The position numbers were made by a program, and so were the translations under genes. From a bacterium (GTDB taxonomy: Bacteria > Sysuimicrobiota > Sysuimicrobiia > Sysuimicrobiales > Segetimicrobiaceae): a stretch of 53,920 nucleotides of DNA. This document shows, one piece after another, positions 33,555 through 36,927 of this stretch. The stretch's first letter is position 1; every line of letters starts with the position of its first letter. Location of the stretch: NCBI GenBank assembly GCA_035691305.1, contig DASSJF010000019.1, positions 1 through 53,920 of the forward strand, read 5' to 3'. The notes beneath the pieces were generated by a model. That model was not told the DNA's origin. It did no database searches and saw only the letters and a program-made list of their open reading frames with translations.

Positions 33555-34727
33555 ATGGCATCGGCTTCCCAGCGTTCGTCACGGCGGCGGCTTCGCGTCG
33601 CCGTCTTGTTTGGCGGCCCGTCGGCCGAGCGGGAGGTCTCGCTGTGGAGCGGCACCCGCGTGCTCGGCGCTCTCGATCCCGCAAAGTACGACGCGCTGCC
33701 CGTTGAGATCACGGTCGAGGGGAAGTGGCTGCCGCGGCCGGATCTGCTGAAGCTGCCGGCACCGGGGTCCGGCGGCGCCGGCGGGCGCAAGTCTCCTCAG
33801 CACGGCTCCTTCCAACCGAGCCCATCGTCCGCGGTCCCGACGCTCGCCGCCGCGTCCCATCACATCGATGAGGTCGTGCGCGAAGGCGAGGTCGACGTCG
33901 TGTTTGTCGCACTGCACGGGCAGTACGGTGAGGACGGTACCGTGCAGGGATTGCTCGAGCTTCTCGGCATCCCGTACACCGGCTCCGGCGTGCTCGCGAG
34001 CGCGCTCGCGATGGACAAGCTGCGCAGCCGGCAGGTGCTGCAGGCGAGCGGCCTCCCGGTGCCCGCGTGGATCCAGCTCGACGGCGATCAGTGGGCCGCC
34101 GGGCCCGCGGAGCTTGCCCGCCGCGTGGCCAGGGACCTCGGCTATCCGTGCGCCGTCAAGCCGAATGCCCAGGGATCGAGCATCGGCGTGACAATCGTGC
34201 GGGACGAGGCCGGACTCGGCGCCGCCGTCGCCGCCGCGCTCGAATTCGGGAACGTCGTCCTGGTGGAAGAGTACCTGCGCGGCACGGAGCTGACGTGCGG
34301 CATCCTTGAGGACCCGGACACCGGTGTTCCACAGCCGCTGCCGGTGATCGAGATCGTGCCGAAGCGCGAGTTCTTCACGTACGAGGCGAAGTATCAAGGC
34401 GCGTCCGAGGAGATCTGTCCCGCGCGCATTCCCGGCCCGATGGCCGAGAAGGCGCAGCAGCTCGCGCTGCGGGCGCACCAGGTGCTCGGCTGCGAAGGAT
34501 TCTCACGCGTGGACCTGTTTCTCTGCGGCACCGACGTGGTCGTGCTCGAGGTCAACACGATCCCGGGTCTGGCGGAGGGCAGCCTCATCCCGCTCGCGGC
34601 GCGGACCGCGGGCATCGAGTACGCGGACCTGCTGGACCGGATGGTGGCCGCGGCGCTCCGGCGCGATCGCGTCCGGCGCCGCAGCCGCCGGGGCGGACCG
34701 CCCTCCGGGTCCGCCGGCACGTCCTGA
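33555..34727 (+). CDS. ddl: D-alanine--D-alanine ligase
   Basis: Makes the D-Ala-D-Ala dipeptide of peptidoglycan. The 390 residues start with VAVLFGGPSAEREVSLWSG, then ALHGQYGEDGTVQGLLELLGIPYTGSGVLASALAMDK (key residues HGQYGEDG and DK), KPNAQGSSIGV, and LEVNTIPG near the C-terminus. An Arg-rich tail ends the protein. No strong Shine-Dalgarno is visible. dapF follows after 2 nt, consistent with an operon for cell-wall precursors. Confidence 0.95.
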   Translation: MASASQRSSRRRLRVAVLFGGPSAEREVSLWSGTRVLGALDPAKYDALPVEITVEGKWLPRPDLLKLPAPGSGGAGGRKSPQHGSFQPSPSSAVPTLAAASHHIDEVVREGEVDVVFVALHGQYGEDGTVQGLLELLGIPYTGSGVLASALAMDKLRSRQVLQASGLPVPAWIQLDGDQWAAGPAELARRVARDLGYPCAVKPNAQGSSIGVTIVRDEAGLGAAVAAALEFGNVVLVEEYLRGTELTCGILEDPDTGVPQPLPVIEIVPKREFFTYEAKYQGASEEICPARIPGPMAEKAQQLALRAHQVLGCEGFSRVDLFLCGTDVVVLEVNTIPGLAEGSLIPLAARTAGIEYADLLDRMVAAALRRDRVRRRSRRGGPPSGSAGTS

Positions 34728-34729
34728 CC

Positions 34730-35605
34730 ATGCCGCGCCTCCGCCGCGACGAGTACGTACGCTCCCACGCGCTCGGCAACGACTACCTCGTGATGGACCC
34801 GCGCACGCTCTCGCTGCGCCTCACGCCCGAGCGTATCCGCGCGATCTGCGACCGGCACCACGGGGTCGGATCGGACGGCATCCTGACGCTCGAGCGGAGC
34901 CGGCGCGCGGATGCCGGCCTGCGGATCTTCAATCCGGACGGTAGCGAGGCGGAGAAGAGCGGCAACGGCATCCGGATCTTCGCGAAGTGTCTGTGGGACC
35001 ACGGCTACGTGCGGCGGCGGTCGTTCACGATCGACACGAAGGGCGGCATCGTCGGGGTGGCGCTCCACGTCCGCGCTCGCGCGGTGCGGTCGATCACCGC
35101 GGAGATGGGCCGCGCGACGTTTCGGAGCCGGGAGATCCCGGTGGCCGGCCCGGACCGCGAGGTCGTGGGCGAGACGATCGAGGCCGCGGGTGAGCGGCTG
35201 GAGTTCAGCGCCGTGTCCGTCGGCAACCCGCACTGCGTCGTTTTCGTGGACGACCCGGCCGCGGTCGACCTCGCGCGCCTCGGGCCCGCGCTGGAGCACC
35301 ACCCGATGTTTCCCAACCGCATCAACGTGCAGTTCGTGCGCGTCGACGCCCCGGGGAAGGTGACGATCCGGATCTGGGAGCGGGGGGCCGGCGAGACGAC
35401 GGCGTCGGGCACGAGCTCGAGCGCGGTGGCCGCGGTCTGCGTGCGGCGGAGCCGGACCGGACGGGATCTCGCCGTGCACAGTCCGGGCGGGGTGCTGCGC
35501 GTCGAGGTGGAGCCGGACTACGCGCTGCGGCTCACCGGCCCGGTCGAGGAAGTGTCGCGCGGAACGCTGAGCGCGGACCTGCTGGCGCGGCTCCGGCGCC
35601 GTTGA
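34730..35605 (+). CDS. dapF: Diaminopimelate epimerase homologue with Ser at both catalytic Cys positions
   Basis: A DapF/proline-racemase-fold protein of 291 residues. The fold signatures are clear: HALGNDYLVMD, GVGSDGIL, NPDGSEAEKSGNGIR (68-82), GNPHCVVF and WERGAGETTASGT (216-228). In known DapF two cysteines do the acid/base chemistry, in MCGNG and ACGTG. Here both are serine (Ser77, codon AGC; Ser226, codon TCG). Either this homologue uses serines, or it is not a DAP epimerase. Position after ddl favours a cell-wall or lysine role. Fold identification is firm; activity is inference. Confidence 0.85.
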   Translation: MPRLRRDEYVRSHALGNDYLVMDPRTLSLRLTPERIRAICDRHHGVGSDGILTLERSRRADAGLRIFNPDGSEAEKSGNGIRIFAKCLWDHGYVRRRSFTIDTKGGIVGVALHVRARAVRSITAEMGRATFRSREIPVAGPDREVVGETIEAAGERLEFSAVSVGNPHCVVFVDDPAAVDLARLGPALEHHPMFPNRINVQFVRVDAPGKVTIRIWERGAGETTASGTSSSAVAAVCVRRSRTGRDLAVHSPGGVLRVEVEPDYALRLTGPVEEVSRGTLSADLLARLRRR

Positions 35606-35646: not shown

Positions 35647-36927
35647 ATGGCGCACATTCTGTATACGGTGCTCGACGGGCTCGGCGACCGGCCGGTCCCG
35701 GCCTTCGACGGCCGCACACCGCTCGAAGCGGCGGCCGTGCCGTTTCTCGGCGCCTTGACCCTCGACGGGCGCACCGGGCTCGTGCAGACGGTCGGACAGG
35801 GCATCGCGCCGGAGTCGGACGTCGCGGTGATGGCGATCCTCGGTTACGATCCATTCAAGTACCACACCGGCCGCGGAGTCTTCGAAGTCGTCGGCTCCGG
35901 CATGCGCTTCGGCGACGGGGATCTCGCCCTGCGCGGCAACTTCGCGACCGGCGGCGAAGGGCGGACGATTCTGGACCGCCGCGCCGGCCGAAATCTGTCG
36001 ACCGAAGAGGCGCACGCCCTCGCCGACGGGGTGACCCGCGAAGTCCGTCTCACGGCCGTCCCGGCGGAGCTCGAAGTGCGCGGCAGCGTGGCGCATCGGG
36101 CCGCGGTCGTGATCCGGCGCCGCGGCGGCCGGCTGTCGGCCAACATCTCCAACACCGACCCCGCGTACGCCCGCGTCCAGGGCCTCGGCGTCGCCCGCGA
36201 GCACGTCGGCAACGAGGTCGAACGCTGCGAGCCGCTCGACCAGAGCGAGGAAGCCAAGGTGGCCGCCGCGCTCGTCAACGAGTTCACGGAGCAGGCGCAC
36301 CGCATTCTGGACGCGCATCCCGTCAACGCGCGGCGCCGGGCGGACGGCCGGCCGCCGGCGAACCTGATTCTCGTCCGCGACGCGGGGGACCACGCGCCGC
36401 AGCTGCCGCCGATCGCCGAGCGGTTCGGGGCGCGCTTCGGCTGCTTCGTCGAGATGCCGGTCGAGCGGGGAATCGCGCAGCTCACCGGGATGCAGGTCAT
36501 CCCGGTCCCGCCGAGCGGCGCCGACAAGGAGCGGGTGTACCGAGAGTGGGCGGAGACCGCGGCGCGGGAGTACGCGAATTTCGACGGCCTCTACATGCAC
36601 CTCAAGGGTCCGGACGAGCCCGGGCACGACGGGGACGCCGAGGCGAAGCGCGCCGTCATCGAGTTGATCGACCGTGCGTTCTTCGGCACGCTGCTGGAAC
36701 GGGTGCCGCTCGACGACGTCGTGGTCGCCGTGACGGCGGATCACGCGACGCCTGTTACGCTCGGCCGGCACTCCGACGATCCGGTGCCGCTTCTCGTCGC
36801 CGGCGACGGCGTTGAGCCGGACGGGACACGGGTCTTCAACGAGAAGGCCTGCGCCAAGGGCGCGCTGGGGATGCTTAAAGGGACCGATCTGATGCCGCTG
36901 TTCGTCCGGCTCGCGCGCGGCGGATAG
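35647..36927 (+). CDS. apgM: Archaeal-type cofactor-independent phosphoglycerate mutase
   Basis: Interconverts 3- and 2-phosphoglycerate in glycolysis. The 426 residues have the alkaline-phosphatase-like metal sites of the aPGM family: VLDGLGDRP at the start, the catalytic Ser in GIAPESDVAVMAILGYDP, HLKGPDEPGHDGD and TADHATP near the C-terminus. This form is common in archaea and in scattered bacteria. GGTGA lies just before the ATG; a GC hairpin occupies the 41-bp gap after dapF. The stop abuts that of rlmD on the other strand with no gap. Confidence 0.92.
   Translation: MAHILYTVLDGLGDRPVPAFDGRTPLEAAAVPFLGALTLDGRTGLVQTVGQGIAPESDVAVMAILGYDPFKYHTGRGVFEVVGSGMRFGDGDLALRGNFATGGEGRTILDRRAGRNLSTEEAHALADGVTREVRLTAVPAELEVRGSVAHRAAVVIRRRGGRLSANISNTDPAYARVQGLGVAREHVGNEVERCEPLDQSEEAKVAAALVNEFTEQAHRILDAHPVNARRRADGRPPANLILVRDAGDHAPQLPPIAERFGARFGCFVEMPVERGIAQLTGMQVIPVPPSGADKERVYREWAETAAREYANFDGLYMHLKGPDEPGHDGDAEAKRAVIELIDRAFFGTLLERVPLDDVVVAVTADHATPVTLGRHSDDPVPLLVAGDGVEPDGTRVFNEKACAKGALGMLKGTDLMPLFVRLARGG

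Follow-up and report, generated by a model that had tools for sequence, protein, structure and literature searches.

The DNA analyzed here (the window, 53,920 nucleotides of contig DASSJF010000019.1, assembly GCA_035691305.1, from a bacterium of the Segetimicrobiaceae, order Sysuimicrobiales) carries at positions 34730 to 35605 of the forward strand a gene of the DapF (diaminopimelate [DAP] epimerase) family in which both catalytic cysteines are replaced by serine. The open reading frame starts with ATG, has no internal stop, and encodes a protein of 291 amino acids that scores above the curated cutoffs of Pfam DAP_epimerase (PF01678; 189.3 bits, cutoff 34.7) and of the NCBIfam DapF model TIGR00652 (241.5 bits, cutoff 114.65). 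The closest solved DapF is the Anabaena structure 9mro, whose catalytic Cys75 and Cys224 align with Ser77 (codon AGC, positions 34958 to 34960) and Ser226 (codon TCG, positions 35405 to 35407) of the window protein, both on the forward strand (residue numbers and roles in 9mro are from PMC12039745). The motifs read EKSGNGIR and ETTASGTSSS, exactly as given in the original prediction, which also rightly described the protein as otherwise intact. With Ser77 and Ser226 in place of the one cysteine that heads each central helix in DapF, the window protein is a variant and not an ordinary member of the family.

An AlphaFold2 model that took as input the window protein together with 48 relatives from the scans had a mean predicted local distance difference test score of 96.9. 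Its best PDB matches in Foldseek were DapF structures; VIA-align gave a Z score of 36.9 for 8qzy (root mean square deviation 1.9 over 272 residues). The model places Ser77 and Ser226 at the N termini of the central helices, 78 to 90 and 227 to 239, respectively. The residues to which a role in DAP binding is assigned in the 9mro report (PMC12039745) are retained, i.e., Asn17, Asn68, Asn166, Asn199, Glu217, Arg218, Gly78, Asn79, and Gly227. Across the Ser/Ser clade described below, Asn166, His168, Asn199, Glu217, and Arg218 were present in 123/123 members and Asn68 in 122/123.

The protein was matched in 40 of the 43 genomes of the window's order, its own genome included: 37 full-length sequences, a gene split over two contigs (G015), an N-terminal half (G030), and one match that was left out (G011). 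All 37 full-length sequences, the window's own among them, were Ser/Ser; both pieces of the split gene carried Ser, and the N-terminal half contained the Ser codon. The check for the serine pair across the lineage proposed in the original prediction thus came out positive, and the Cys/Cys relatives at this locus that it named as evidence of error or recent decay were looked for and not found. Relative to two genus-mates, the ratio of nonsynonymous to synonymous substitution (dN/dS) was about 0.11 to 0.18 (dN 0.064 and 0.100; dS 0.559 and 0.570), and the gene is under purifying selection. Loss of both textbook catalytic cysteines might suggest that the gene is dead or in decay, or that the change is a sequencing artifact. 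This is extremely improbable: the pair recurs in all of these order-mates and across many phyla, dN/dS is low, the predicted fold is intact and confident, and the genome contains no replacement DapF. Conservation together with the low dN/dS rules out both artifact and decay.

The Ser/Ser type extends well beyond the order. A scan of 386 relatives from about 250 family groups for the pattern EK[S/C/T/R/W]GNG picked up 13 further genomes outside it; in 10 the match lay in a DapF gene, all Ser/Ser and distributed over seven families, while the other three (G096, G145, and G146) were not within a DapF and were dropped as chance matches. When the contigs of 84,980 species were scanned for DGSExxK[S/C/T/R/W]GNG, at least 118 stretches were recovered, 80 loci of which were analyzed. 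Among the matches listed, the first site was Ser in 80/80 loci and the second in all 74 in which it could be read. Record titles place these loci in Verrucomicrobia, Chloroflexi, Bacteroidetes, Deltaproteobacteria, Planctomycetes, Nitrospira, Methylomirabilota/Rokubacteria, Spirochaetes, Aquificota, Dadabacteria, Latescibacteria, Armatimonadota, Actinobacteria, Clostridia, Gammaproteobacteria, and one cyanobacterium. Plasmid records, compared by identity alone, yielded only DapF sequences below 60%.

Alignment of 163 proteins (124 Ser/Ser, 33 Cys/Cys, 5 Ser/Cys, and 1 Cys/Ser) brought out a signature shared by the Ser/Ser sequences. Lys76 (codon AAG, positions 34955 to 34957, forward strand), directly before Ser77, is present in 123/123 clade members, which were grouped by having it (one of the 124 Ser/Ser proteins does not), versus 0/33 Cys/Cys proteins, where Met, Gln, or others take its place. 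Ile83 (122/123), Gln201 (121/123), and Ser229 (120/123) complete the signature; most Cys/Cys enzymes have Cys, Glu or Asn, and Gly, respectively, at these positions. A broader census gave the same association: among the 150 rows listed, a Lys at the preceding position was paired with Ser in 9/9 and with Cys in 0/133, three rows (D-S, G-S, and H-T) being taken by assumption for non-DapF matches. In a quick tree of 106 alignment rows, from which columns 76, 77, 226, and 229 had been removed and which contains some long branches, the Ser/Ser clade occupied one side of a branch with a Shimodaira-Hasegawa-like approximate likelihood ratio test value of 94. Judged by these sequence comparisons, the Ser/Ser proteins form one ancient, trans-phylum clade. 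Serine variants without the signature also occur, namely, Ser/Cys in L216 to L219 and L039, Cys/Ser in L234, and, in L215, Ser/Ser accompanied by Ile76 and Gly229. No further DapF was found in any of the seven genomes concerned (G051, G265, G382, G253, G112, G197, and G181). Natural Ser/Cys, Cys/Ser, and signature-less Ser/Ser proteins suggest that the DapF catalytic pair is more changeable than textbooks imply. Cys169 was considered as a replacement base and rejected, as it is Ala in 6/123 clade members.

Around the gene, the context is one of cell wall synthesis. A D-alanine--D-alanine ligase gene (ddl, 33600 to 34727, forward strand, 5′ coordinate provisional) ends two bases before the dapF start. 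On the 3′ side of dapF, positions 35647 to 36927 of the same strand encode a phosphoglycerate-mutase-like protein that scores higher against PhpG, a phosphonoformyl transferase model (446 bits, below the cutoff of 545), than against apgM (392 bits, above the cutoff of 320). The window's genome encodes an LL-DAP aminotransferase, DapL (584.6 bits, cutoff 507), LysA (434 bits, cutoff 298), and a DAP-type MurE (553 bits, cutoff 373) containing SDNPR. The DNPR motif, which marks meso-DAP ligases, was present in 27 of the 31 MurE loci searched. LysA exceeded its cutoff in 36/44 relatives and MurE in 41/43, and full-length DapL-like proteins of 545 to 595 bits were found in 35/43, one of them above the strict cutoff of 593; G041 has a further one scoring 449 bits.

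With regard to copy number, the window's genome has one DapF, the only other PF01678 match scoring 22.7 bits, below the cutoff, so the second dapF that the original prediction suggested looking for did not turn up. The Ser/Ser protein is the only DapF found throughout the order, and outside it all 10 Ser/Ser genomes, from the seven families and 93 to 100% complete, have a single DapF. A Ser/Ser gene was present in 49 named genomes, of which 32, many of them drafts of unstated completeness, had no other DapF match; LysA was above the cutoff in 19 of these 32 and detected at an E value of ≤0.001 in 29. DAP dehydrogenase, the alternative source of meso-DAP named in the original prediction, was above its cutoff in 0/44 relatives and 0/32 of the sole-copy genomes, and this route was discarded. 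Weak dehydrogenase matches (E ≤ 0.001) in 8/44 and 15/32 genomes, mostly short N-terminal stretches below 28 bits, are read as other, probably NAD(P)-binding, proteins. The window's genome thus has DapL, LysA, a DAP-type MurE, one DapF, and no DAP dehydrogenase above the cutoff, i.e., a need for the LL-DAP to meso-DAP step. As a separate observation, both DapF types coexist in an Armatimonadota genome (L123, G419) and in a Sedimentisphaerales genome (L084, G389).

No gene neighborhood was conserved across the loci, in a comparison that covered 72 of the 80. A tblastn search of the 80 loci (at most 8 kb of DNA per locus, 580 kb in total) found lysA in 7/80, and a convincing dapL, as judged from tblastn, lay near the Ser/Ser dapF in L081, L095, L097, L105, L146, and L156; one or both of these genes were found in 10/80 loci, mainly of Bacteroidetes. 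In the Bacteroidetes locus L105/L274, lysA, dapF, and a divergent dapL adjoin each other.

Taken together, pathway, copy number, neighbors, and retained binding residues make the conversion of LL-DAP to meso-DAP the best reading, and the window protein is probably the organism's diaminopimelate epimerase, a member of a distinct and ancient Ser/Ser subfamily. We infer this activity from what was established directly, i.e., the sequence, its conservation, the sole-copy status, the pathway context, and the predicted fold. As it is usually the organism's only DapF, the Ser/Ser type probably does the usual DapF job by different chemistry.

Several points weigh against this interpretation. Seventeen of the 49 named genomes have further DapF genes beside the Ser/Ser one, and in 16 of them the second copy is Cys/Cys (the extra copies in G424 are fragments), so the Ser/Ser protein could be doing something else there. 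Such extra Ser/Ser genes occur in Ewingella americana, Pseudomonas sp. 21, Westiellopsis prolifica, and Clostridium sp. LS (L122, L108, L138, and L117 in G418, G408, G428, and G415, respectively), and in ten multi-DapF contexts inspected, where neighbors had no profile annotation, no obvious partner gene was seen. In one of the 17, a Spirochaetes genome (L101/L210, G402:C281:3710-4523), the Ser/Ser dapF is broken by frame changes and stops and an intact Cys/Cys dapF is also present. A cysteine, Cys40, is conserved in 121/121 alignable clade members and is the only one in the proteins L089 and L148; it is absent from 10/33 Cys/Cys proteins, and we judge it to be probably noncatalytic. L215, with neither Lys76 nor Ser229, indicates that these residues are not required for every Ser/Ser enzyme. 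Serine is also far less acidic than cysteine. Engineered C67S and C209S mutants of the histidine racemase HisR lost most activity, according to PMC11602996, and Cys-to-Ser mutations are described as hindering catalysis in DapF and its relatives in PMC12039745.

The coexisting Cys/Cys genes would fit an enzyme that racemizes or epimerizes a different amino acid, or catalyzes an elimination from it, with meso-DAP supplied by some further route, much as the original prediction proposed. Its premise is sound, since Cys-to-Ser/Thr changes do accompany other reactions among enzymes of the proline racemase fold, DapF-like in architecture (PMC4113996), and DapF look-alikes can favor another substrate, such as histidine in Fusobacterium (PMC11602996). 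We nevertheless regard this alternative as distinctly unlikely for the window protein, because it would leave the order and the ten near-complete genomes outside it with no other DapF, LysA and a MurE of the DAP type were found while DAP dehydrogenase had no match above the cutoff, the residues that hold the distal end of DAP show little or no variation, and the gene adjoins lysA and dapL in Bacteroidetes.

Returning to a DAP epimerase, our working preference is for an enzyme in which serine hydroxyls carry out both proton transfers, perhaps with the aid of Lys76. LL-DAP produced by DapL would bind as in ordinary DapF, its distal end to Asn68, Asn166, Asn199, Glu217, and Arg218 and its proximal carboxylate to the N termini of the two helices. 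The hydroxyl of Ser77 or Ser226 would then remove the alpha proton, its basicity raised by the helix termini, by a pocket that is closed and dry, and perhaps by the adjacent Lys76, and the opposite serine would return a proton to give meso-DAP for LysA and MurE. In a variant of this scheme, Lys76 would act through a serine to remove the alpha proton. In 9mro, the thiols sit at the helix ends and touch the backbone NH of Gly76 and Gly227 (PMC12039745). The Ser/Ser clade keeps these helix ends, with Lys76 directly before Ser77 and Ser229 (codon AGC, positions 35414 to 35416, forward strand) in the place of the glycine, Gly227 of 9mro, whose NH contacts the second catalytic cysteine. A serine acting as base has precedent in this fold, in the Ser/Cys 4-hydroxyproline epimerase (PMC4113996). 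The broader proposition, that these proteins constitute trans-phylum, thiol-free, cofactor-free, and metal-free two-base epimerases acting at an unactivated alpha carbon, with Ser77 and Ser226 tuned by Lys76 and Ser229, we favor only by a little.

Alternatively, the base on at least one face could be Lys76 itself, or a water molecule that it holds, with the serines donating protons or positioning groups. The strict association of Lys76 with serine noted above would fit such a role. So would two features of 9mro given in PMC12039745: the residue matching Lys76 is a Met, located in a loop that bends around the substrate, and the cysteines have no basic residue within 4 Å. The same source, however, reports the residues of that loop as making no direct contact with the substrate, a side chain one residue ahead of the serine may point away, and L215 is Ser/Ser without the lysine. 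We consider a lysine base unlikely.

In textbooks, DapF exemplifies the removal of a very weakly acidic proton by a pair of thiolates, and the enzyme has been proposed as a target for antibiotics that attack it via its cysteines. To our knowledge, a Ser/Ser DapF has not been reported. None was found in the open-licence literature, which is weak evidence of absence as subscription journals lay outside the scope of the search. PDB titles show that the DapF mutants C73S and C217S have been crystallized, although no paper on C73S was found in the same literature. As assigned from sequence, the Ser/Ser DapF lacks the two-cysteine feature and shares the similarity, binding-site, and pathway features of the family. 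A natural, apparently essential double-hydroxyl version makes it possible to test whether the thiol is needed or whether helix ends and a closed pocket suffice. In practical terms, the curated DapF model assigns the name whatever the two catalytic residues are, and DapF inhibitors directed at thiols would leave entire bacterial groups untouched. If the enzymes are indeed thiol-free epimerases, Ser77 and Ser226 would stand in for a thiol/thiolate pair regarded as indispensable in DapF, and neither cysteine oxidation nor such inhibitors would affect them.

Among known systems, the window protein most resembles DapF itself (TIGR00652; 9mro, 8qzy, 1gqz, and 5m47), with which it shares the fold (Z scores 29 to 37), whole-length similarity above the cutoff, all the DAP-binding residues, and the pathway context; it differs in both catalytic cysteines and in Lys76, Ile83, Gln201, and Ser229. 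The proline racemase superfamily includes a Ser/Cys 4R-hydroxyproline 2-epimerase and a Ser/Thr trans-3-hydroxyproline dehydratase (PMC4113996), which resemble it in general fold and in Ser at the first catalytic position, the epimerase also in two-base chemistry. They are unlike it in substrates, in family, and in having one Ser opposite Cys or Thr where the window protein has two Ser, and its Pro_racemase score in Pfam (14.7 bits, cutoff 27) places it outside that family. O-ureidoserine racemase (7vdy) is similar in fold (Z score 36.5) and has a DapF-like sequence (E value 5e-43) but acts on a different substrate; roles for its Cys residues are mentioned in PMC8142540, and our comparison with it was global. 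The histidine racemases CntK and HisR, the latter once predicted to be a DapF (PMC11602996), have a DapF-like fold but are Cys/Cys enzymes acting on histidine. The window protein scores far below the cutoffs of the CntK model NF033599 (12.8 bits, cutoff 300) and of the bifunctional DapF/glutamate racemase model NF038284 (82.9 bits, cutoff 350).
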